From Methylophilus sp. (lineage in GTDB: Bacteria; Pseudomonadota; Gammaproteobacteria; Burkholderiales; Methylophilaceae), in contig NZ_SSGF01000007.1 in NCBI RefSeq assembly GCF_008015755.1, positions 124,001 through 188,000 on the forward strand: 64,000 bases of DNA, in the 5' to 3' direction. Of the stretch, positions 33,502 through 47,717 are shown in pieces. Position numbers and translations under genes: made by a program. Under the pieces are notes generated by a model that was given only the letters and a program-made list of their open reading frames with translations, had not been told where the DNA came from and did not search any database. The number at the start of each line of letters is the position of its first letter. Position 1 is the first letter of the stretch.

Positions 33502-34515
33502 TCAGTACTTGCCACCAACGGCTTTGATCAGCTCTACCATGGCAGGGTTCTGGCCTTTCAGTGCGTAGACATAAGCGGTGAGCCCGTATTGGTCGCGGGT
33601 TTTGACATTGGCTTCATTGGCTAATAACAGGCGTGCCATCTCGGGCGAGTTGTTGCTCACGGCCAAATGCAGCAGAGGCGTGCCCTCACTGTCTTTGTGG
33701 TTAACATCGGCTTTATGCTCCAGCAGCGCTTTGGCCACTTCGGTCTGGTTCTTGGTCACGGCCCAGGTCAGCGCCGTCCACTCGTGCTCATCTTCTTCGT
33801 CGACTTTCGCGCCATGCTCCAGCAAGTAAATCGCAGCAGGCACATGACCCTCTCTGGCTGTGATCATCAGTGCAGTGGTGCCAAGTTTGTCTTTGAGGTT
33901 TGCGTCTGCGCCATGGCTTAAAATTGAGGTAATGGTTGGTACATCACCACTTTTGGCCGCATACATCAGCACCGTTTTGCCATCTGACGAACGCACATTC
34001 GCATCAAAACCACGTGTAATGATCAAACCGACCACTTCGCTGTAGCCAGAGGTGGCTGCCAGACCTAGCGCGCTCCAGCCTGCCGGGTCGCGTACTTTGA
34101 CATCGGCACCTTTTTCCAGCAATGCTTTGACGGCGTCGATATTATTCTTTTTGGCGGCGAACATCAGCGCGGTCCAGCCACCCTGGTCTTTGGCATTAAT
34201 GTCTGCGCCATTGGCCAGTAATTCGGTAATCACCGCCGCCTGATTTTTGCGCGCGGCATACATGATAGGCGTGATTTTTTCACTGTCGGCCACATTGGGG
34301 TTGGCGCCGCTTTTGAGTAGCGCTTTGACCGTGGCCAGATCGCCTTTGGACGAGGCGATTAACAGGTAGGATATATTGGCACTCGGCTCTATGCTGGTGT
34401 CATCAACAGGCGGCGCTTTTTTTGCCGCCTGTGCAGGCAGGGATAGCCCCAGCAACAGGCAGGCGCTCATGCAAAGGGCGCCAAGCCGGTGGGTTGTCTG
34501 AGGACGATGCTTCAT
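33502..34515 (-). CDS. Exported ankyrin-repeat protein
   Basis: A 337-residue protein. It has a signal peptide (residues 1-30, ending AQAA) and about eight ankyrin repeats from residue 48 to the end. Their signature TPIMYAARKNQAAVITELLANGADIN recurs with small changes (TALMFAAKKNNIDAVKALLEKGADV, and so on). Ankyrin domains bind protein partners. The gene begins 14 bases after sucD stops and has AAAGGA upstream, so it is likely in the sucC-sucD transcript. A periplasmic ankyrin protein in a TCA operon is unusual; its role is unknown. Confidence 0.88.
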   Translation of the reverse strand: MKHRPQTTHRLGALCMSACLLLGLSLPAQAAKKAPPVDDTSIEPSANISYLLIASSKGDLATVKALLKSGANPNVADSEKITPIMYAARKNQAAVITELLANGADINAKDQGGWTALMFAAKKNNIDAVKALLEKGADVKVRDPAGWSALGLAATSGYSEVVGLIITRGFDANVRSSDGKTVLMYAAKSGDVPTITSILSHGADANLKDKLGTTALMITAREGHVPAAIYLLEHGAKVDEEDEHEWTALTWAVTKNQTEVAKALLEHKADVNHKDSEGTPLLHLAVSNNSPEMARLLLANEANVKTRDQYGLTAYVYALKGQNPAMVELIKAVGGKY

Positions 34516-39212: not shown

Positions 39213-40010
39213 TCAGCCTGTTTCGGCATTTAAATAGGCTAATTCAATCGCACTAAATCCGGCTTGCTTGCGTGCCTCCATATTGAATGGCGGGCGCAAT
39301 TTGGGCGCCTGGTATTGTTGGCGCAAGGTTTCAAAGGTCTCGACGATATCGAGGCCACGTTGATCACATAAATATTGAAACCAGCGGTTGCCTATGGCGA
39401 CATGGCCGATTTCGTCACGCAGGATAATGTCCAGAATCGCGGCGGCAGCGTGGTCGCCTGCTTGCGACAGTTTTTGCTTGAGTGGTGGTGTAGCATCTAG
39501 TCCGCGTGCTTCCATGGTGCGTGGCACCAGTGCCATGCGTGCCAATACATCGGATTGGGTTTTTTCGACCATCTCCCACAGGCTGTTATGGCCGTCAAAA
39601 TCGCCGTAATCAAAGCCCAGGGTTAGCAAGTGCGCACGCAGTAGCGAGAAGTGGTAAGCTTCTTCTTTCGCCACTTGCAGCCAGTCCAGGTAATAATCTG
39701 CGGGCATGTCGGCAAAACGCCACACGGCATCCAGCGCCAGATTAATCGCATTAAACTCAATATGTGCCAAAGCGTGAATCAGCGCTGCGCGGCCTTCGGC
39801 AGTGTTCATGGCGCGACGTTGCAGTTGTTTGGGCGGCACCAGCGTCGGTTTTTCTGGCCGACCCGGAATGGATTGTGCAGGCGCACTTAGCGTGATCGAT
39901 GGGTCAGCTTGATGCTTGGCCTGCCAAAGCAGCGCAACCTGCTGGCATTTTTGTTGCGGATCACTGAGCGTCAGTGCTTGCAGGGCGAGGGTTCTCAGGC
40001 AGGATGTCAT
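39213..40010 (-). CDS. DUF455 ferritin-like protein
   Basis: A 265-residue helical protein of the DUF455 family. Likely metal ligands lie in the ferritin-like core: AHIEFNAINLALDAVWRF near residue 87, KEEAYHFSLLRAHL near 115 and DEIGHVAIGNRWF near 195, with E/H pairs suited to a di-metal site. The function is unknown. The start at ATG 40010 lies 50 bases inside the 3' end of the upstream histidine kinase gene. This is a longer overlap than usual, and the next in-frame start would remove conserved sequence, so I keep it. Confidence 0.85.
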   Translation of the reverse strand: MTSCLRTLALQALTLSDPQQKCQQVALLWQAKHQADPSITLSAPAQSIPGRPEKPTLVPPKQLQRRAMNTAEGRAALIHALAHIEFNAINLALDAVWRFADMPADYYLDWLQVAKEEAYHFSLLRAHLLTLGFDYGDFDGHNSLWEMVEKTQSDVLARMALVPRTMEARGLDATPPLKQKLSQAGDHAAAAILDIILRDEIGHVAIGNRWFQYLCDQRGLDIVETFETLRQQYQAPKLRPPFNMEARKQAGFSAIELAYLNAETG

Positions 40011-41406
40011 AGCGCTCGAATTTTACCGTGAATTGGCTGCCAATGTGATGAGTGATTGGATGCGGCAAGCCTGGGGTGACGGTGATCGTGGCATTATGGT
40101 GTTCTGCAATCTCGGCGACGATGGCCAGCCCCAGGCCGCAACCATTGCCCTGATTGGGGTCGAGCCGATGAAAACGCTCAAAAATCAATGCCGTCTGGTC
40201 GGCAGGAATGCCCAGGCCACTGTCGGATACTTGCAACATCAACTGCTGTTCAGTTTGCCATAAACGAATTTCAAGCAGGCCTTGTTCTGGTGTGTATTGA
40301 ATCGCATTTTCAAGCAGGTTATTCAGCATCTCCGATAGCATTAACGCATCGCCCAGCACTTTGTCTTGCCGGGTTTCAATCAGTACTTCGAGCTCTAGCT
40401 GTTTGTCCGCGGCGGGGCCGACCCAGCGCGCGCACTCGTCATAAATAATATCGGTCAGTGAGACGGGTTGAAACTGACTGCTGGCCGCATCGGTTCTGGC
40501 CATACTTAGCAGGCGTTGAATCAGGTGCGATAAGCGCGTTGTACTGCGCAGCATGTAATTGAGCGGCTCTTGCAGAGCTGCAGGTGGCTGGCTGCGCAAG
40601 GCCAGCTCTGCTTGCGTTTGCAGCCCGGCAATTGGCGTGCGCAATTGATGCGAGGCATCGGCAATAAATTGCTGCTGTTGCTGCAAGCCAGCTTTGACGC
40701 GCGACAACAGCGCATTCATGGCTTGCACCAGTGGTTGCAACTCTAGCGGCGAGGAGTCGGTGTTGAGCGGGCTTAAGTCACGGTGAGAGCGCTGGTGTAA
40801 AGATTCCCTGAGGTCTTGCATGGGTTTTAGCGCAAAGTGGATACCCAATTCGATCACAATCGCGGCCAAAATCATCATCAACACTTGCGGCAGCAGCATT
40901 TCTTCGACCATTTCTGCCACCATGGCATCACGCTTGCCGGTGGTTTCTGCCATGGTGATTAAGATATTGCGTGCATCGGCAGCCTTGCTTTCAGGCAGAC
41001 CAAAGGTCACCGCCCGAATCGCTTCGCCTTGATAAACGCTGTTGTAGTAGGTTTGCTGGTTACCCGCCGGTGGTTTGGGCGGTAAAGGTAAATGCGCCTC
41101 GCCAAACACCAGTTTGCCTTGTGGCCCACTGATGCGGATGTAAATGCGATCGCCCTCGTTGTAACTCAGTAAATGGCTGGCGACTTCCGGGATCTCAATT
41201 TTGACTTCATTATTGGCATCTATAATCACTTCGTCTGCCAGCGCAAGCACCGTGCGCAATAAAGACTGGTCATAAGCCTGGGTGGCGTAGAGCAAGGCGC
41301 GTGAGTAGGAGAGGGCGGCAGACACGCCAAGCACCAGCAACATAGGCAGTAACAGCCACAAGCGCAGCTGGTTTTTGAGTGAGCGGGGTCCTATGCTATT
41401 GCGCAT
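39961..41406 (-). CDS. Sensor histidine kinase (QseC/TctE-like)
   Basis: Inner-membrane sensor of 481 residues. Span 1 is residues 14-33, the periplasmic 2CSK_N-type domain covers about 34-170 and span 2 is 174-192. The phospho-acceptor His253 is in DASHQLRTPIAGLQT. The ATPase domain follows with MLNNLLENAIQYTPE (N box), DSGLGIP (G1) and GCGLGLAIVAEI (G2). It is encoded one base after its response regulator. The signal is unknown; related TctE and QseC sensors respond to organic acids or stress cues. Confidence 0.92.
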   Translation of the reverse strand: MRNSIGPRSLKNQLRLWLLLPMLLVLGVSAALSYSRALLYATQAYDQSLLRTVLALADEVIIDANNEVKIEIPEVASHLLSYNEGDRIYIRISGPQGKLVFGEAHLPLPPKPPAGNQQTYYNSVYQGEAIRAVTFGLPESKAADARNILITMAETTGKRDAMVAEMVEEMLLPQVLMMILAAIVIELGIHFALKPMQDLRESLHQRSHRDLSPLNTDSSPLELQPLVQAMNALLSRVKAGLQQQQQFIADASHQLRTPIAGLQTQAELALRSQPPAALQEPLNYMLRSTTRLSHLIQRLLSMARTDAASSQFQPVSLTDIIYDECARWVGPAADKQLELEVLIETRQDKVLGDALMLSEMLNNLLENAIQYTPEQGLLEIRLWQTEQQLMLQVSDSGLGIPADQTALIFERFHRLDPNQGNGCGLGLAIVAEIAEHHNATITVTPGLPHPITHHIGSQFTVKFERYDILPENPRPASTDAQ

Positions 41407-41407
41407 G

Positions 41408-42088
41408 TCACGAGAGGTTCAGGTGTTCGGCTTCGAGCATATAGCCCAAGCCGCGCACGGTGCGGATATGCGCGCCGCTGGGTTCGATTTTTTTGCGCAG
41501 ACGGTGGATATACACTTCAATGGCATTATCGCCCAAGGTTTCGTCCCAGTTGCACAAGGACTCCATGATTTGCTCTTTGGCGATGATTTTACCCATGCGC
41601 ATCATCAAGGTTTCCAGCAGATTGAGTTCACGCGCAGACAGAGTAATAAGCTGGTCATTAATACTGGCCAGTTTGTTGGCGACATCGAGTTTTAAATTGC
41701 CGCATTGCAAGGGTAGGTTGTTGCCCAGCTTGCTGCGTCGGATCAGTGCCCGTACACGGGCTTCTAACTCTTCGAGATGAAACGGCTTGGTCAGAAAGTC
41801 ATCTGCCCCCAGGTCTAGCGCTTGCACACGGGTGGCGACATCTTCGCGCGCGGTTAAAATCAACACCGCAATCGCATTAGCCTGCTGGCGCAAGTGCGAC
41901 AGCAACTGCATGCCATCCATGGTCGGTAAGCCCAGGTCCAAAATCACCATGTCATACACGTCATCCTGAATAGCGCGTAAGGCTTGCTTGCCATCCGTCA
42001 CGTGATCGACCGCATACTGTGACTGGGTGAGTGCACGCACCAGTCCATTCGCAATCACTAAGTCATCTTCCACGATTAATAAACGCAT
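41408..42088 (-). CDS. OmpR-family response regulator
   Basis: A 226-residue two-domain regulator. The receiver has the acidic pair ED at residues 7-9, the phospho-acceptor Asp51 (ILDLGLPTMDG), Thr in LTARED and Lys in DFLTKPF. The C-terminal winged helix binds DNA, with the recognition helix near DNAIEVYIHRLRKKIEPSG. It is transcribed with the kinase gene and resembles TctD/QseB. GGAT lies upstream of the ATG. Targets are unknown; the small exported peptide gene is divergent. Confidence 0.94.
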   Translation of the reverse strand: MRLLIVEDDLVIANGLVRALTQSQYAVDHVTDGKQALRAIQDDVYDMVILDLGLPTMDGMQLLSHLRQQANAIAVLILTAREDVATRVQALDLGADDFLTKPFHLEELEARVRALIRRSKLGNNLPLQCGNLKLDVANKLASINDQLITLSARELNLLETLMMRMGKIIAKEQIMESLCNWDETLGDNAIEVYIHRLRKKIEPSGAHIRTVRGLGYMLEAEHLNLS

Positions 42089-42617: not shown

Positions 42618-43499
42618 TTAATGCAAGTCGATGATATCCAGCTTGCCTGCTTTCATATCTGGCACCAGCAAATGATGGTCGTCCTGGCTTAAGGCGATGT
42701 CAGCTGCTGATTGATAACCTTCTTTGACCAGCGTGACTTTATGTTGTTGATCAATCTTGAATACCTTGCCTGATTTCCAGTCACTGACATAAAGTGTGCC
42801 GTTGGCCTGTTTGACAATGCCATCACCACCGCCCAAGCCACTCGCCACTTCATCCAGTTTTTTCGTCAGTAAATTGTAGGTGTAAAGCACGCCAGAGGTG
42901 AAGTCGACCAACAGCAGGTGCTCGCCTTTTGCATCGGTCAGTAGACCATTAGGCGCTAAAATACGTGCATCTATGCTGCCGTCCAACAATAAGCTCAGCT
43001 GGCGCTGCGGCGTGACTTTATAAACGATGCCGCCTTTGCCGCTACCCAAAATATCACCACTGTCACTGATATACAGATTGCCATTGGCATCTGCGCTCAA
43101 GTCGTTGAGAAATTGTGGCAGTTTGGGGAAGTCCGTCGCGGCTAGAAACACCTCTGCGCTGGCTGTCGCTTGATTCAGGGCCACGCGCAGCACGCGTGTT
43201 TTGTCGGCAATGTATAAATCATTGCCGATGATGATCAGGCCTTTGGGATCGTCCAGGCCTTGTACCAGCACCGAGGTTTTGCCATGGTCAATGACGCGGA
43301 TCTGGCCGTCACCATCTTGGCCAAAACCATTGATTTCAGACACATAAATCTTGCCATCTGCCGCTTGCACGACCGATTCCGGTGTCAGTAAGCCGCTCAC
43401 TGGTGCCAAACCATGCGCTTGACTGTGGCTGGTCACTGTTAGTAACAGGCCAGCCAGAAAACTGGGCATCCATGCGCGCTGATGCTGAGAAAACAACAT
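42618..43499 (-). CDS. Exported SMP-30/NHL-type beta-propeller
   Basis: A 293-residue protein with a signal peptide (ends near SQAHG, residue 29). Repeated strands such as GLTPESVVQAADGKIYVSE, LDDPKGLIIIGNDLYIADK and FLNDLSADANGNLYISDSG mark a six-bladed propeller of the SMP-30/gluconolactonase or NHL class. Such proteins hydrolyse lactones or bind ligands; catalytic metal residues cannot be assigned here. AGGAG lies before the ATG. It is last in a five-gene exported redox operon, nine bases after the previous stop. Confidence 0.78.
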   Translation of the reverse strand: MLFSQHQRAWMPSFLAGLLLTVTSHSQAHGLAPVSGLLTPESVVQAADGKIYVSEINGFGQDGDGQIRVIDHGKTSVLVQGLDDPKGLIIIGNDLYIADKTRVLRVALNQATASAEVFLAATDFPKLPQFLNDLSADANGNLYISDSGDILGSGKGGIVYKVTPQRQLSLLLDGSIDARILAPNGLLTDAKGEHLLLVDFTSGVLYTYNLLTKKLDEVASGLGGGDGIVKQANGTLYVSDWKSGKVFKIDQQHKVTLVKEGYQSAADIALSQDDHHLLVPDMKAGKLDIIDLH

Positions 43500-43507
43500 A
43501 TAGACTC

Positions 43508-44092
43508 CTAGAAAAAGGCTTTAGGTTGGGACAGGGTATTAATGCTATTGCACAAGGCGTCGTAGGTTTGTATCGGGCCCTGAGACACCGATTGCTGAAA
43601 CACCGGATTCTGCTGTAACTGCTGAATCACTTGATCAAACGCACGCTGGTAAGATTGGTGTGTGAAGTATTCTACATTGTAAGTCAGCCAGCCACGCGAT
43701 TGGCCTTCGCCTTTCACGGTCAGTAGCGGTTTGCCCAGTGCGCTATCTGCGGCAGATGTGTTGTACACCTTAGCGGTGATTTCGCTGTAAAACACGCCGG
43801 TTTGCGGGTTGTAAAACATATTGGGCTCAATCACCACCAGTGCCTGGCCTTTGGCCTCTGCCTCGCAGCTGGAAGTGGTGTATTTTTGCGCCTGAAAACT
43901 GCTCAAGCCTACTGTTTCGGCCGCTTCGGCACGGTTATGCCAATAATTGAGGTAAGGGTTCAACAGGCGGACCGGATGCTGGTAAAACGACTCCGGCACC
44001 TGAATGACCAGCGCCGGGGCAGTTTCTGCCTGGCTCAGGCCTATCCAGCCCAGGCAAATCGCGCCAGTGATAGACAATAATATGCGTTTCAT
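43508..44092 (-). CDS. Exported protein of unknown function in redox operon
   Basis: About 194 residues from the ATG at 44092, which has CAGGAG upstream. A signal peptide (residues 1-22, ending SQAE) is followed by a mixed alpha/beta body with two cysteines (SSCEAEA near 74 and DALCNS near 181) that could form a disulfide in the periplasm. I recognise no family. Its gene sits between two beta-propeller genes and in the same direction, so it most likely works with them. Confidence 0.65.
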   Translation of the reverse strand: MKRILLSITGAICLGWIGLSQAETAPALVIQVPESFYQHPVRLLNPYLNYWHNRAEAAETVGLSSFQAQKYTTSSCEAEAKGQALVVIEPNMFYNPQTGVFYSEITAKVYNTSAADSALGKPLLTVKGEGQSRGWLTYNVEYFTHQSYQRAFDQVIQQLQQNPVFQQSVSQGPIQTYDALCNSINTLSQPKAFF

Positions 44093-44127
44093 ATCGTGCT
44101 CCTGAAAAAGTACATGGCAGCGTGTGG

Positions 44128-45339
44128 TTACAGGCTGCGAATTCGGTAAATCCAACCAGTCAGATCGTCTGACACATAAAGCCAGCCATCAGCGCCAACA
44201 ATCACATCGACTGGCCGCCCCCAGGCTTGTTTGCCTTGCAGCCAGCCCTCTATGAATGGGACGCTGGCCACGGGCTGTTGGTTCCTGAATTGTACACGCA
44301 GCAAGGCATAGCCGCTGGGTTGTTTACGGTTCCACGAACCGTGTAAAGCCACAATTGCATCCTGTTTGAGGTCGTCGGGCAATCGGCTTTGATCCAGAAA
44401 AGTGATGCCGATGGGAGTGCTGTGTGCTGGCAGTAGCAGAGCAGGGGCTTGCGCCTGTTGGCAAACCGCTGTTTCGCCCACAGAGTTAGGGTCTTGCATC
44501 AGTTGCCCTGGCTGCGCAGGATCACCCCAACAATACGGCCAGCCATAATGCTGGCCTGCTTCAATCTTGTTTAAGTGCTCTGGAGGCAGGTCGTCATCAA
44601 TCACACCATTTTTTTGTCCGCTGCGGTTATCGGCGCCATTGTTGGTGGCAAACATTTCCCCACTTTGCGGATGCCAGGCAACACTCTGGCTGTTGCGTAG
44701 CCCGCGCGCCCAAATGGCTGATTGTGCATGGCGGCCAACGGTGAGCAATGCGCCTGCAGGCCGACCATCCAGGGTGTAGCGCAGTAGCGTGGCGCGCGTC
44801 GGATTGTCTTCAACACACACATTACAACTGGAGCCGACATTGATAAACAAGTAACCGTCTGGTGATAGCTTTAGCGTTTTCAGGCTATGGCCGCCACTGG
44901 GTAAATTACGGATAAACGGCTGCGGTGCGCCCCAGCCATCACCTTGTTTGGGCAGTTTGACCACGCCGGTTTGCTCGGCCACCAGCAAGTCTTCGCCCAG
45001 CAGCACCATGCCATGAGGCGCATTAAGGCCTTGGGCGATGACTTCTGCGTCACCTTGTGCATTCAAGCGCACGATGCGGCCGGTATCAGACAGGCTGACT
45101 AACAGCCGCCCCTGGCGATCCAGCGCTAGCATACGCGGTGCGCCCAGGGCGCTGACATCACTGAAGCGCTCAATGTTGAGCCCGGTTGGCACATGCAATG
45201 TGGATAAGGCTGCCTCTACGGCTAGCGTTTGCGCCATGGCATAGTGCAAACCAATCGCCATACACAAGCCCGTGATTGCGATCAGCAGCAAGCGAGAGAC
45301 TTTATTAGGCGGAGAGGTTTGCGTATGCATAGTCGTCAT
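44128..45339 (-). CDS. Soluble PQQ-dependent dehydrogenase-like (sorbosone dehydrogenase family)
   Basis: A 403-residue protein with an N-terminal signal or anchor (residues 17-36). It has propeller motifs of the sGDH/Yli family: APHGMVL, GGHSLKTLKLSPDGYL, NVGSSCNVC, ARGLRNSQSVAWHP, HLNKIEAGQHYGWPYCWGD, HGSWNRK and the C-terminal GWLYVSDD. In PQQ sugar dehydrogenases the first His and the Arg/Asn act with the cofactor. The CNVC pair may form a vicinal disulfide. The substrate is unknown. It overlaps the flavoprotein gene by four bases, which suggests that electrons could pass to the neighbouring cytochrome. Confidence 0.8.
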   Translation of the reverse strand: MTTMHTQTSPPNKVSRLLLIAITGLCMAIGLHYAMAQTLAVEAALSTLHVPTGLNIERFSDVSALGAPRMLALDRQGRLLVSLSDTGRIVRLNAQGDAEVIAQGLNAPHGMVLLGEDLLVAEQTGVVKLPKQGDGWGAPQPFIRNLPSGGHSLKTLKLSPDGYLFINVGSSCNVCVEDNPTRATLLRYTLDGRPAGALLTVGRHAQSAIWARGLRNSQSVAWHPQSGEMFATNNGADNRSGQKNGVIDDDLPPEHLNKIEAGQHYGWPYCWGDPAQPGQLMQDPNSVGETAVCQQAQAPALLLPAHSTPIGITFLDQSRLPDDLKQDAIVALHGSWNRKQPSGYALLRVQFRNQQPVASVPFIEGWLQGKQAWGRPVDVIVGADGWLYVSDDLTGWIYRIRSL

Positions 45340-46631
45340 GTCAATGTATCGGCCCAGATGTTTTCTGCCCAGGCTTGTGCGTATTGGCCTTCCTGCGTAC
45401 TGGCCTTGGCTGAGACGCCACCACCTTCGGCGGACACCATGGCTTTTTTGGCAGGGTCATAACGATACACGTTGGCCACATGCATGGCTTGCTGGTCATC
45501 GACAAAGCTGTAGCAGGTATTTGCAAACACCGGCAGGGGGTTTGGTGCGTTGCCTGATTGCAGGTCTATGATGGCGGCGGCGCACACTTTGGCCTGCGAG
45601 GTCGCCATATGAGCAGACTTGGGTAAGCCTGCCGAAATACTATCGCCTATGATATGCACATCTGCCTGCAGGCTCGAGGCATACGTCACAAAGTCGACTT
45701 CGCACCAGCGGCCATCGACATTATTAAGGCCAGCGACTTGCGCCACTTTGCCCGCCAGTTGTGGCGGAATCACATTCAGCACGTCGGCTTTTACCGTTTC
45801 AAAATCGGTTTTGATAGTTTTGCTGGCGGTATCCAGCTGCAGGATTTCGCTGTTGTTATGGTATTCGATGACGCCTTGGTAAGCGCCGTTAAAGCTCTGC
45901 AAAAACAAGCCTTTTTTAGACATAATGTCCGCATTGGCGTCCAAAATAATCACCTTGCTGCGCGGTTTATGCTGTTTAAAGTAATGCGCTACCTGGCAGG
46001 CACGTTCATAAGGGCCGGGCGGGCAACGGTAAGCCCCCGTGGGGATTGTCATCACAAACACACCGCCATCCGGCATGCTTTCCAGTTGTTGTCTGAGTTG
46101 CAGCGTTTGCTTGCCCGCTTTCCAGGCGTGCGGAATATCGGCCACCGGCGCAGACATGCCTGGTATCTTGCTGACATTAAAGTCGACGCCAGGCGCCAAT
46201 ATCAGACGATCATAGCTGAGCTTGCCGCGCGTGAGTTGCACTTGCTTATTAGCGAGGTCGACGGCGGTCACTGTATCATTGACCCAATCTAGCCCGTGCT
46301 GCTTGCGCGTTAAGTCATAGCCAAAACTGAGCTGGTCCAGCGTACGGCTGCCCCCCAGCACCAGGTTACTTTGCGGGCAGGAGATAAACTGCGGATTAGG
46401 CTCAACGATGGTCACTTTGAGGTTGCCCATGCTCCAGGCACGTAAATACTTAGCGGCGGTGAGGCCCGCAAAGCCAGCGCCTACAATCACCACATGGCCC
46501 AAGGGCGGTTTACTGGCACGTGCAAAGGCGGGCAGGCCATAAAAAGCCAGGCCGCCATAAATTACCGAGCGCACAAATTGTCGGCGTGTTCCGCCTAGGG
46601 AGCTAGTAGTCAATACGGCATCCGTCTGCAT
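45336..46631 (-). CDS. Flavocytochrome c sulfide dehydrogenase-like flavoprotein
   Basis: A 431-residue FAD protein exported by Tat (TRRQFVR at residues 15-21). It matches FccB of Allochromatium: dinucleotide site HVVIVGAGFAGLTAAKYL, Cys85 in FISCPQSN at the place of covalent FAD attachment, YRCPPGPYER with Cys203, and WCEVDF with the partner of the redox disulfide. It ends NTCYS...WADTL like FCSD. It would oxidise sulfide or a related reductant and pass electrons to the cytochrome encoded directly upstream (stop/start share one base). Sulfide is the expected substrate, but the propeller neighbours leave this open. Confidence 0.88.
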   Translation of the reverse strand: MQTDAVLTTSSLGGTRRQFVRSVIYGGLAFYGLPAFARASKPPLGHVVIVGAGFAGLTAAKYLRAWSMGNLKVTIVEPNPQFISCPQSNLVLGGSRTLDQLSFGYDLTRKQHGLDWVNDTVTAVDLANKQVQLTRGKLSYDRLILAPGVDFNVSKIPGMSAPVADIPHAWKAGKQTLQLRQQLESMPDGGVFVMTIPTGAYRCPPGPYERACQVAHYFKQHKPRSKVIILDANADIMSKKGLFLQSFNGAYQGVIEYHNNSEILQLDTASKTIKTDFETVKADVLNVIPPQLAGKVAQVAGLNNVDGRWCEVDFVTYASSLQADVHIIGDSISAGLPKSAHMATSQAKVCAAAIIDLQSGNAPNPLPVFANTCYSFVDDQQAMHVANVYRYDPAKKAMVSAEGGGVSAKASTQEGQYAQAWAENIWADTLT

Positions 46632-46981
46632 TATTGTGCCCCCTTAAATGATTGACGTGGCAAAGCCTGTGGCGTTTGTCTGGGTTGTTGCGCGAAATAG
46701 CTCGCCAGCGCCATGATTTCAGCGGAGGTTAAGCCTTTGGCATGATGATGCATGACGGTTGAAGAGACCGAGCCATCTTTAAAGCCTTGCATGCGCTGTA
46801 CAAAGTAGTCTTCATTGAGCGCGGCCAGCGTCGGCGTGCCGCCCAGGCTATTGCCGTTGGGTCCGTGGCAAGCGGCACAAGACGCAGCCAGTGTGTGAAT
46901 CGCCGAAGAGTCTTCTGCCTGGGCCGATAGCGACCATGCGACGACACAAGCCCATACTATATTGACGTATCTCTGCTTCAT
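46631..46981 (-). CDS. Monoheme cytochrome c, FccA-like
   Basis: A 116-residue periplasmic cytochrome with a signal peptide (ending SAQAE, about residue 22). One heme motif is CAACHGPNG, and the distal Met is in SSTVMHHHAKG. It is of the c553/c4 half type, matching one domain of the FccA subunit that accepts electrons from the flavoprotein. GGGGG lies before the ATG. It leads the operon with the flavoprotein (TAATG overlap), the PQQ-like propeller, the unknown protein and the SMP-30 propeller. Confidence 0.9.
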   Translation of the reverse strand: MKQRYVNIVWACVVAWSLSAQAEDSSAIHTLAASCAACHGPNGNSLGGTPTLAALNEDYFVQRMQGFKDGSVSSTVMHHHAKGLTSAEIMALASYFAQQPRQTPQALPRQSFKGAQ

Positions 46982-47147: not shown

Positions 47148-47633
47148 TTAGAAGCATTTTTCTTCCTGGCAACCATCGTTTTTGGTACCAAGTTCTGTCA
47201 GTAAATCAACCATCTTCTGGTTGTTTTCTTCTTTGAAGTAACGCACCAATGAGACGTCGCCTTTGAGCTTGATGTTGACATCAGCCCCAGCAGACGCCAG
47301 GTATTTCATCGTTGCAGTATCGCCAATAAACGCAGACATATGGAACGCCGTGTTATGGCTGGCCGGATGCACGTAGTTGAGGTCAGCGCCTTTGGATACC
47401 AGGTATTTCACAACATCCAGTTTGCCTTTTGACGCAGCCATTTGCAGTGGCTCCCAGGCAAAGAATTTCTGTTTTACCAGCGTCGGATCGGCTTCCACAA
47501 ACTTTTTGACCACTTTCACGTTACCACCTGTGAGCGCCTCGGTAAACTCCATGTAATCCTCATCAGACAGCGCAAACGCCTGTAATGCGAATGACAGTGA
47601 GAACAAGGCCACTAAAAACTTAACTGATTTCAT
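47148..47633 (-). CDS. Small exported ankyrin-repeat protein
   Basis: About 161 residues from the ATG at 47633, which has GGAGAG upstream. A signal peptide (residues 1-21, ending QAFA) is followed by about three ankyrin repeats: PLQMAASKGKLDVVKYLVSKGADLN, TAFHMSAFIGDTATMKYLASAGADVN and a degenerate third. The tail has two cysteines (DGCQEEKCF) at the very C-terminus, suggesting a disulfide or metal site. It is monocistronic between purL and the redox operon, with its own terminator. It may be related to the larger ankyrin gene at 33502, but the repeats are short. Confidence 0.85.
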   Translation of the reverse strand: MKSVKFLVALFSLSFALQAFALSDEDYMEFTEALTGGNVKVVKKFVEADPTLVKQKFFAWEPLQMAASKGKLDVVKYLVSKGADLNYVHPASHNTAFHMSAFIGDTATMKYLASAGADVNIKLKGDVSLVRYFKEENNQKMVDLLTELGTKNDGCQEEKCF

Positions 47634-47717
47634 AATCTCTCCAAACACCTGATTTTCATTTTTAAAAATAACAACTTTGTTTTTATGGCGAAACCGATTT
47701 TTTAATGATGGTTTCGC

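Follow-up and report, generated by a model that had tools for sequence, protein, structure and literature searches.

Genes and domains at the locus

The window, by which we mean the whole analysed stretch of 64,000 nucleotides of Methylophilus sp. DNA, carries five consecutive minus-strand open reading frames (ORFs) at positions 42618-46981, as established from ORF coordinates and a Pfam/NCBIfam search. Read along the coding strand, they encode a monoheme cytochrome c (cyt; 46631..46981, 116 aa), a flavoprotein of the flavocytochrome c sulfide dehydrogenase (FCSD) type (45336..46631, 431 aa), a propeller of the glucose/sorbosone dehydrogenase type (GSDH; 44128..45339, 403 aa), a protein with two conserved cysteines, here called g4 (43508..44092, 194 aa), and an SMP-30/SGL propeller (42618..43499, 293 aa). 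The tight packing on one strand noted in a preliminary description is found in full: the cyt/FCSD junction is TAATG, FCSD and GSDH overlap by 4 bases, and the two following gaps are 35 bp (GSDH to g4, counted from an ATG at 44092; the ORF caller has g4 begin at the TTG at 44155) and 8 bp (g4 to SMP-30). A predicted exported ankyrin-repeat protein, ank (47148..47633, minus strand, Pfam Ank_4/Ank), is encoded upstream; it has 161 aa from the ATG at 47633, the ORF caller starting at a GTG at 47648. With a gap of 166 bp between them in the window, ank and cyt may or may not be cotranscribed. Downstream on the same strand lie a two-component system (RR 41408-42088, HK 39961-41406) and then a DUF455 protein (39213..40010, PF04305, 331 bits). 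Intrinsic terminators and promoters showed no excess over shuffles.

N-termini were judged by inspection, without a predictor, and we predict that all operon proteins are exported, FCSD by a Tat-type RRxF signal and the others by Sec-type signals, in agreement with what had been described. The FCSD arginines R16 and R17 are invariant in 17/17 aligned sequences. The earlier family assignments also hold. The cytochrome matches PF00034 (E 1.4e-5) and has the heme motif CAACH and a methionine within TVMHHHAKG; C35, C38, H39 and M77 are invariant in 15/15 aligned sequences. Both domains of FCSD are over threshold (PF21706, 148.4 bits against a cut-off of 27; PF09242, 85.4 bits against 26), and its closest solved relatives are 5n1t, 3vrd and 1fcd. 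Cysteines C85, C203 and C373, positioned by alignment with 3vrd and 5n1t, are kept in 62/62 rows and are presumably the FAD-linking cysteine and the redox cysteine pair.

GSDH matches PF07995 with 64.1 bits (cut-off 25) and, judged by its sequence, is a distant, weak member of that family. Residues H151, R215, N216 and R375 are invariant in 15/15 aligned sequences; by sequence alignment only, the first three correspond to positions in 2ism and 6jt5, and R375 to one in 6jt5. H151 may be the catalytic histidine, and the other three may be of the PQQ-contacting Arg/Asn type. The protein belongs to the same propeller family as the PQQ-dependent aldose/sorbosone dehydrogenases (PF07995; 2ism, 2g8s, 6jt5), with these positions aligned, but it differs from them in scoring weakly and in having the conserved cysteines C172, C175, C270 and C293.

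The SMP-30 protein matches PF08450 with 49.2 bits (cut-off 26.3), and its AlphaFold2 model (pLDDT 92.2) has a propeller fold. Residues E41, N132, N184 and D226, which we assume to be the SGL metal quartet, are invariant in 40/40 aligned sequences (39 of 80 fetched matches plus the window) and are the same in Cj1041c by alignment. Foldseek matches include the Ca-bound Cj1041c (22gu), the lactonase RPA3624 and DFPase, and also non-enzyme NHL propellers, with PknD first; the top Foldseek and profile matches together take in the PknD domain and the designed Pizza proteins. Fold and Glu-Asn-Asn-Asp residues are those of the SMP-30/gluconolactonase family, from which the window protein is set apart by its predicted export and by its position next to GSDH, to which relatives are fused in some genomes. 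Some SMP-30 relatives have, by inspection, lipobox-like N-termini.

The remaining protein, g4, has no match in Pfam or NCBIfam and no sequence match in the PDB (best E 0.44), and its assignment to a known family was rejected on these grounds. C76 is present in 61/61 aligned sequences and C181 in at least 90% of them (60 of 65 fetched matches plus the window). The AlphaFold2 model (pLDDT 88.7) bears a weak fold likeness to PelC/LptE/PqiC (Foldseek best E 9.5e-4, TM about 0.4).

Conservation of the block in Methylophilaceae

We fetched 100 stretches from 90 of 187 genomes and left out 15 that lacked purL, which were either contig ends or regions remote from the block. Among the 85 purL-bearing loci (window excluded, six-frame counts), the order ank-cyt-FCSD-GSDH-g4-SMP30 is complete in 54, and the individual genes are present in 70-85. 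Chance clustering of the block genes is rejected, since 54/85 neighborhoods keep all six in order. The grouping first described is thus real and conserved within the family, but it is not a five-gene unit: ank lies upstream in 85/85 loci and is its sixth member. Across 86 loci, window included, the four junctions between cyt and SMP-30 have median gaps of -8 to 13 bp and the ank-cyt junction one of 85 bp, all biased short by the ORF caller's choice of the earliest starts. We conclude that the block is a conserved gene set of the methanol-eating Methylophilaceae, comprising a sulfide-oxidising-type pair, a sugar-oxidising-type enzyme, a likely lactonase and two little-known proteins with predicted export. 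The parts are familiar and their combination is unusual. A search of the mainly open-access literature, by titles and abstract openings among the matches listed, returned no description of this operon.

It is conceivable, though on balance rather unlikely, that the block's functions are unrelated, with cyt-FCSD detoxifying sulfide and GSDH/SMP-30 oxidising a sugar and hydrolysing the lactone, and that they merely share a locus handed down from the family ancestor. Absences within the block are modular, as this would predict: cyt and FCSD are jointly missing in 11/85 loci and GSDH alone in 12/85, the latter keeping ank, cyt, FCSD, g4 and SMP-30. A gene was scored as missing if the 9.5 kb following purL in the fetched stretch did not contain it on the same strand, and it may still sit elsewhere or past a contig end. 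FCSD does not, then, need GSDH beside it. Synteny in the region is also generally slow to change. DUF455 lies in the 10 kb that follow purL downstream in 55/85 loci (79 of the 85 span that far) and a HAD hydrolase is kept downstream in 53/85, and slow rearrangement therefore accounts for part of the conserved order. However, other neighbors are kept far less often than the block genes: RR and HK are each found in 17/85 loci (79 of the 85 span the full 10 kb downstream), and FeoB adjoins purL upstream in only 17/85 (80 span enough upstream sequence). The very short gaps and overlaps within the block, although their medians are biased short, likewise argue against a merely shared locus.

Relatives of the block outside its conserved position

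The flavoprotein resembles FccAB/SoxEF (1fcd, 3vrd, 5n1t) in having a cytochrome c gene directly upstream and in keeping the FAD-link and redox cysteine positions, but it constitutes a separate subfamily and is followed by propeller genes. The 27 sampled operon FCSDs form one group (98/91), which joins five off-block copies from Methylophilaceae (95/85), and these together are separate from 27/30 FCSDs of other families (100/100). With off-block copies counted, FCSD occurs in 20/24 genera. A profile made from the Methylophilaceae sequences themselves gives 566-740 bits for that family and for three matches in two other genomes; none of the other matches listed exceeds 455.5 bits. The monoheme partner is not special, because 14/28 FCSD-adjoining cytochromes of other families also have one CxxCH.

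Proximity of the last three genes to the FCSD pair, which the preliminary description had named as a test of its pathway, gives a mixed result, being usual inside Methylophilaceae but not outside: within flanks of up to 1.5 kb, GSDH, SMP-30 or g4 adjoined FCSD in 0/29 loci of other families. An FCSD-propeller pathway wherever FCSD occurs is rejected for these 29 loci, and their lack of propellers is a further point in favor of two unrelated functions. GSDH and SMP-30, for their part, are paired in other settings without FCSD. Fused GSDH-SMP-30 ORFs of 647-731 aa are present in 6/7 candidate loci, one of them in the window's own genome, the count scoring one locus (L320) as a miss although it has an open frame of 696 aa. 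At three further loci (L115, L116, L126) the two are adjacent separate genes, and in the first two of these PF07995 is full-length, with 278.7 and 284.9 bits. Together with the conserved SGL-type residues, these arrangements leave the putative dehydrogenase-plus-lactonase pairing well backed.

The single joint pathway of the preliminary description fares worse. Such a pathway might act on one substrate that combines sulfur with a sugar or aldehyde group, such as a formaldehyde-thiol thiohemiacetal: GSDH would oxidise it, SMP-30 would cleave the resulting thiolactone or thioester, and FCSD-cyt would oxidise the freed thiol or sulfide. All the parts are together and, by inspection, exported; methanol dehydrogenase produces formaldehyde in the periplasm; and in two streamlined genomes (L113, L114) the block has retained SMP-30 and ank. 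Against this, the parts are absent independently of one another across the 85 loci, and the GSDH/SMP-30 pairs elsewhere do without FCSD. We regard both this pathway and its sequence of steps as very improbable; a pair of activities, whether coupled or only sharing a locus, agrees better with the observations.

Possible function of the block

The reading that we favor, tentatively and at somewhat less than even confidence, is a periplasmic oxidation module, conserved in Methylophilaceae, in which two activities are coupled, with protection as the likely link. Its observed basis is the anatomy of the locus, the conserved active-site-type residues, the gene order, the GSDH-SMP-30 fusions, and the link between sister FCSDs and a quinoprotein-associated gene; export, cofactors, substrates, the electron path and the protective role are what we infer. 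GSDH, probably with PQQ, would turn an aldose or a related hydroxy-aldehyde into a lactone by oxidation, and the SMP-30 propeller, probably in a Ca-dependent way, would then hydrolyse this lactone to the acid. FCSD and cyt would oxidise sulfide, or else some other sulfane or a thiol, and pass electrons to the periplasmic cytochrome pool, and g4 and ank might serve as scaffold or thiol-handling accessories. The sulfide/thiol-oxidising pair may shield PQQ enzymes: sulfur nucleophiles can form PQQ adducts, and members of this family depend for their living on PQQ enzymes in the periplasm. The protection idea is borrowed from another system: PMC12997753 puts forward as a hypothesis that SoxYZ-like-type proteins shield PQQ from sulfur nucleophiles, and reports that thiosulfate inhibits methanol growth of Hyphomicrobium denitrificans. 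Several observations weigh against the favored reading: GSDH is missing from 12/85 loci and cyt with FCSD from 11/85, the window's GSDH is only distantly related to other PF07995 members, non-enzyme propellers are among the top matches of SMP-30, the operon matches neither the SoxYZ-like carrier models nor those of the zinc hydrolase, and slow rearrangement accounts for part of the synteny.

If true, a protective module would explain why a methanol-living family keeps a sulfide-dehydrogenase-type pair in one operon together with a quinoprotein of the sugar type. It would make testable whether FCSD and SoxYZ-like proteins, where they neighbor PQQ enzymes, guard quinoproteins against sulfur, and it adds g4 and ank, two conserved and predicted exported proteins, as handles.

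With the off-block FCSD copies in view, a more elaborate arrangement may be considered. All five off-block FCSD+cyt pairs in the fetched Methylophilaceae loci adjoin a SoxYZ-like carrier gene of the quinoprotein-associated type (the two that were scored are both over the TIGR04557 cut-off), and TIGR04559, the relay zinc hydrolase, is also found at 1/5. What the block has in common with quinoprotein relay/ped-cluster accessories (TIGR04557, TIGR04559; PP_2677, PP_2678) is a predicted exported protein with cysteines, in the company of a putative hydrolase and a PQQ-type enzyme; its sister FCSDs also lie next to a carrier. In a relay of this kind the cysteine tail of ank would shuttle a cargo of sulfur or carbon from one enzyme to the next, as proposed for SoxYZ-like carriers, with SMP-30 replacing the zinc hydrolase, GSDH as the quinoprotein, and FCSD-cyt regenerating or guarding the redox state of the carrier thiol; sulfur chemistry and PQQ oxidation would then be one mechanistic system. 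The C-terminal tail of ank is GCx4C in the window and has x3-x4 in relatives, G154, C155 and C160 being invariant in 40/40 aligned sequences with a cysteine spacing of 3-4 (39 of 70 fetched matches plus the window), and the gene is at every purL-bearing locus. However, the window operon differs from known relays in lacking both a SoxYZ-like carrier (no TIGR04557 match among the operon proteins and ank at E up to 0.01) and a zinc metallohydrolase (no TIGR04558/04559 match among the operon proteins by profile search). ank itself matches no SoxY model in a profile search at E up to 0.01, it is retained at the loci that lack FCSD and cyt, and its two tail cysteines may equally form a plain disulfide or a metal site. 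We consider both the relay and the roles that it assigns improbable. An ankyrin gene adjoining cyt-FCSD in another family (L335) was ruled out as support for a carrier, the tail cysteines being absent. Elsewhere in the window's genome TIGR04557 has one match over the cut-off (G000:C3) and one below it (C8).

Composition and conservation of the block downstream of purL

On the minus strand downstream of purL we found a block of six genes (47633-42618), encoding in reading order an ankyrin-repeat protein, a monoheme cytochrome c, a flavocytochrome c sulfide dehydrogenase flavoprotein (FCSD), a glucose/sorbosone dehydrogenase-type propeller (GSDH), a 194-aa protein (g4) and an SMP-30/SGL propeller (SMP-30). 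The preliminary description listed five of these genes; they are present as described, and re-reading the sequence reproduced their positions, the two overlaps (TAATG and 4 bases) and the two gaps (35 and 8 bp), but the account missed the ankyrin gene, which is located between purL and the cytochrome gene (166 bp upstream of the latter) and whose product has an export-type N-terminus. Pfam and NCBIfam assign cytochrome c, FCSD flavoprotein, GSDH and SGL domains to the block proteins, and g4 has no match in either collection. Going by titles and abstract openings we found no published description of the operon, and the available parts of PMC6794327 and PMC3728764 do not mention it.

Of 187 Methylophilaceae genomes searched in full, 125 had an FCSD match (E up to 1e-60) and 138 a g4 match (E up to 0.001); for GSDH the number was 124 (E up to 1e-20, a more distant paralogue counted in) and for SMP-30 it was 174 (E up to 1e-8, fused paralogues counted in). 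Profiles were applied to six-frame ORFs of 100 stretches from 90 genomes; because every stretch was picked for holding at least one of FCSD, g4, GSDH and SMP-30, the locus counts are conditional on that choice. purL was present in 85 stretches, and the remaining 15 were left out of the counts. In these 85 loci we observed the ankyrin gene 85 times, SMP-30 80, g4 79, FCSD 74, the cytochrome 73 and GSDH 70. The full six-gene order is found in 54, and two further loci have a split GSDH. As controls, FeoB adjoins purL upstream in 17/85 loci (80 have enough upstream sequence) and two-component genes lie downstream of the block in 17/85. DUF455 and HAD hydrolase genes are retained downstream in 55 and 53 of the 85 (79 have the full 10 kb), so slow rearrangement accounts for part of the block synteny. 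Mere co-location of separate functions is an explanation that we consider rather unlikely, though to be taken seriously. The block is real and family-conserved, made up of known families and one protein family without a name, and its combination is a variant on known kinds.

The cytochrome and FCSD are jointly absent in 11 of the 85 loci, GSDH is the sole absentee in 12, and the cytochrome is absent with FCSD retained in one. At four loci from genomes of 1.2-1.4 Mb the core genes are reduced to the ankyrin gene and SMP-30 (L113, L114) or to the ankyrin gene, GSDH and SMP-30 (L117, L118). This pattern of absence suggests that the block acts as modules, namely cytochrome with FCSD, GSDH alone, and g4 with SMP-30, the ankyrin gene being present throughout; a single linear pathway seems to us very improbable.

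In the window, a two-component kinase and regulator with likeness to heavy-metal and PmrAB types (39961-42088) are encoded between SMP-30 and DUF455, as in a minority of loci, and are a possible regulator of the block.

FCSD pairs within and outside the block

The three key FCSD cysteines (C85, C203, C373) are present in all 62 sequences compared. A tree was built from 27 FCSDs of the operon, 5 off-block copies of the family and 30 sequences from other families. Those of the operon make up a single group (98/91), which the off-block family copies join (95/85), and the two together are separated from 27 of the 30 other-family sequences (100/100); the remaining three (L325, L326, L356), which come from two genomes, lie on the same side of this split as the family. 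Among the fetched loci we met five FCSD-cytochrome pairs away from the block (L101, L104, L108, L109, L128), all in Methylophilaceae; the off-block FCSD is an additional copy in G057 and G108, and in G053, G055 and G058 no other FCSD matched at E up to 1e-60. A SoxYZ-like gene directly adjoins every one of these pairs. The two such genes tested reach 242.5 and 245.7 bits against the SoxYZ-like carrier model TIGR04557 (cut-off 140), and L128 additionally carries a quinoprotein-relay-type zinc hydrolase (TIGR04559, 397.5 bits, cut-off 280).

A search of 369 genomes for FCSD matched 112 besides the window's own; outside the family, 29 loci were returned for neighbour reading. A cytochrome is upstream of FCSD in 28 of them, and GSDH, g4, SMP-30 or a SoxYZ-like gene in none of the 29 within up to 1.5 kb per side; three longer stretches of 8-9 kb gave the same outcome. 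In one locus from another family of the class (L335:2-823) an ankyrin gene lies directly upstream of the pair, its product being without the tail cysteines.

GSDH and SMP-30 as partners

GSDH and SMP-30 belong together. A second locus of the window's own genome (L232:8681-10693, contig C15) encodes both in one 670-aa ORF, with the GSDH part at 22-400 followed by the SMP-30 part at 400-670, and the fusion recurs in L233, L234, L318, L319 and L321 (6/7 candidate loci examined). In L115 and L116 SMP-30 is preceded, at 18 and 15 bp, by a full-length PF07995 (GSDH) gene (278.7 and 284.9 bits), and in L126 it has another GSDH as its neighbour. E41, N132, N184 and D226 of SMP-30 are unchanged in 40/40 aligned sequences and correspond in alignment to residues of Cj1041c, whose entry 22gu contains Ca; we take them to be the metal quartet. 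H151, R215, N216 and R375 of GSDH are unchanged in 15/15; the first three were aligned with 2ism and 6jt5, R375 with 6jt5 only, and presumably they serve as in soluble glucose dehydrogenase. Fusion, adjacency and conserved residues support a scheme in which GSDH would oxidise a substrate to a lactone that SMP-30 may then hydrolyse. Non-enzyme propellers equal or outrank enzymes among the SMP-30 matches, which counts against an enzyme role.

The fused ORF in L232 adjoins genes for an AraC-type regulator and, in the opposite direction, a zinc alcohol dehydrogenase.

Possible coupling of the activities, and the ankyrin protein and g4

We favour a mechanism of two coupled periplasmic activities, the coupling itself being what we infer: PQQ-type oxidation with lactone hydrolysis would proceed alongside oxidation of sulfide or a thiol by FCSD and the cytochrome, and the two would be joined since PQQ enzymes are harmed by sulfur nucleophiles. 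A link of sulfur oxidation with quinoproteins could be tested on this block. The available part of PMC12997753 places SoxYZ-like and relay-type genes beside PQQ alcohol dehydrogenases, cites PQQ protection from sulfur nucleophiles as one among several hypotheses, and reports minimal phenotypes on disruption of such genes in Pseudomonas putida without rare earths. From the portions available, PMC8399692 includes fccA, sqr and soxY among Methylophilus sulfur genes, and PMC4611497, which names Methylophilaceae as dimethylsulfide degraders, found flavocytochrome c sulfide dehydrogenase genes more numerous in the labelled metagenome fraction.

The C-terminal tail of the ankyrin protein carries Gly-Cys and, 3-4 residues later, a further Cys, all unchanged in 40/40 aligned sequences. 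A relay with this protein as carrier is improbable in our judgement. A second ankyrin protein in the window (33502-34515; 337 aa, six repeats matched, export-type N-terminus) adjoins succinyl-CoA ligase genes, and ankyrin ORFs of similar length are found near the block in several further family genomes.

The structure predicted for g4 is confident (pLDDT 88.7), and the model bears a weak likeness to PelC, LptE and PqiC. Distant relatives are present in 7 other-family genomes among 399 sampled from the order. In reduced genomes g4 is found away from the block (L111, L112, L229-L231), its neighbours in L230 including Kinase-PPPase and aldehyde dehydrogenase genes. An other-family genome of the order encodes a 646-aa ORF with three tandem g4-like domains (L225:8646-10586).
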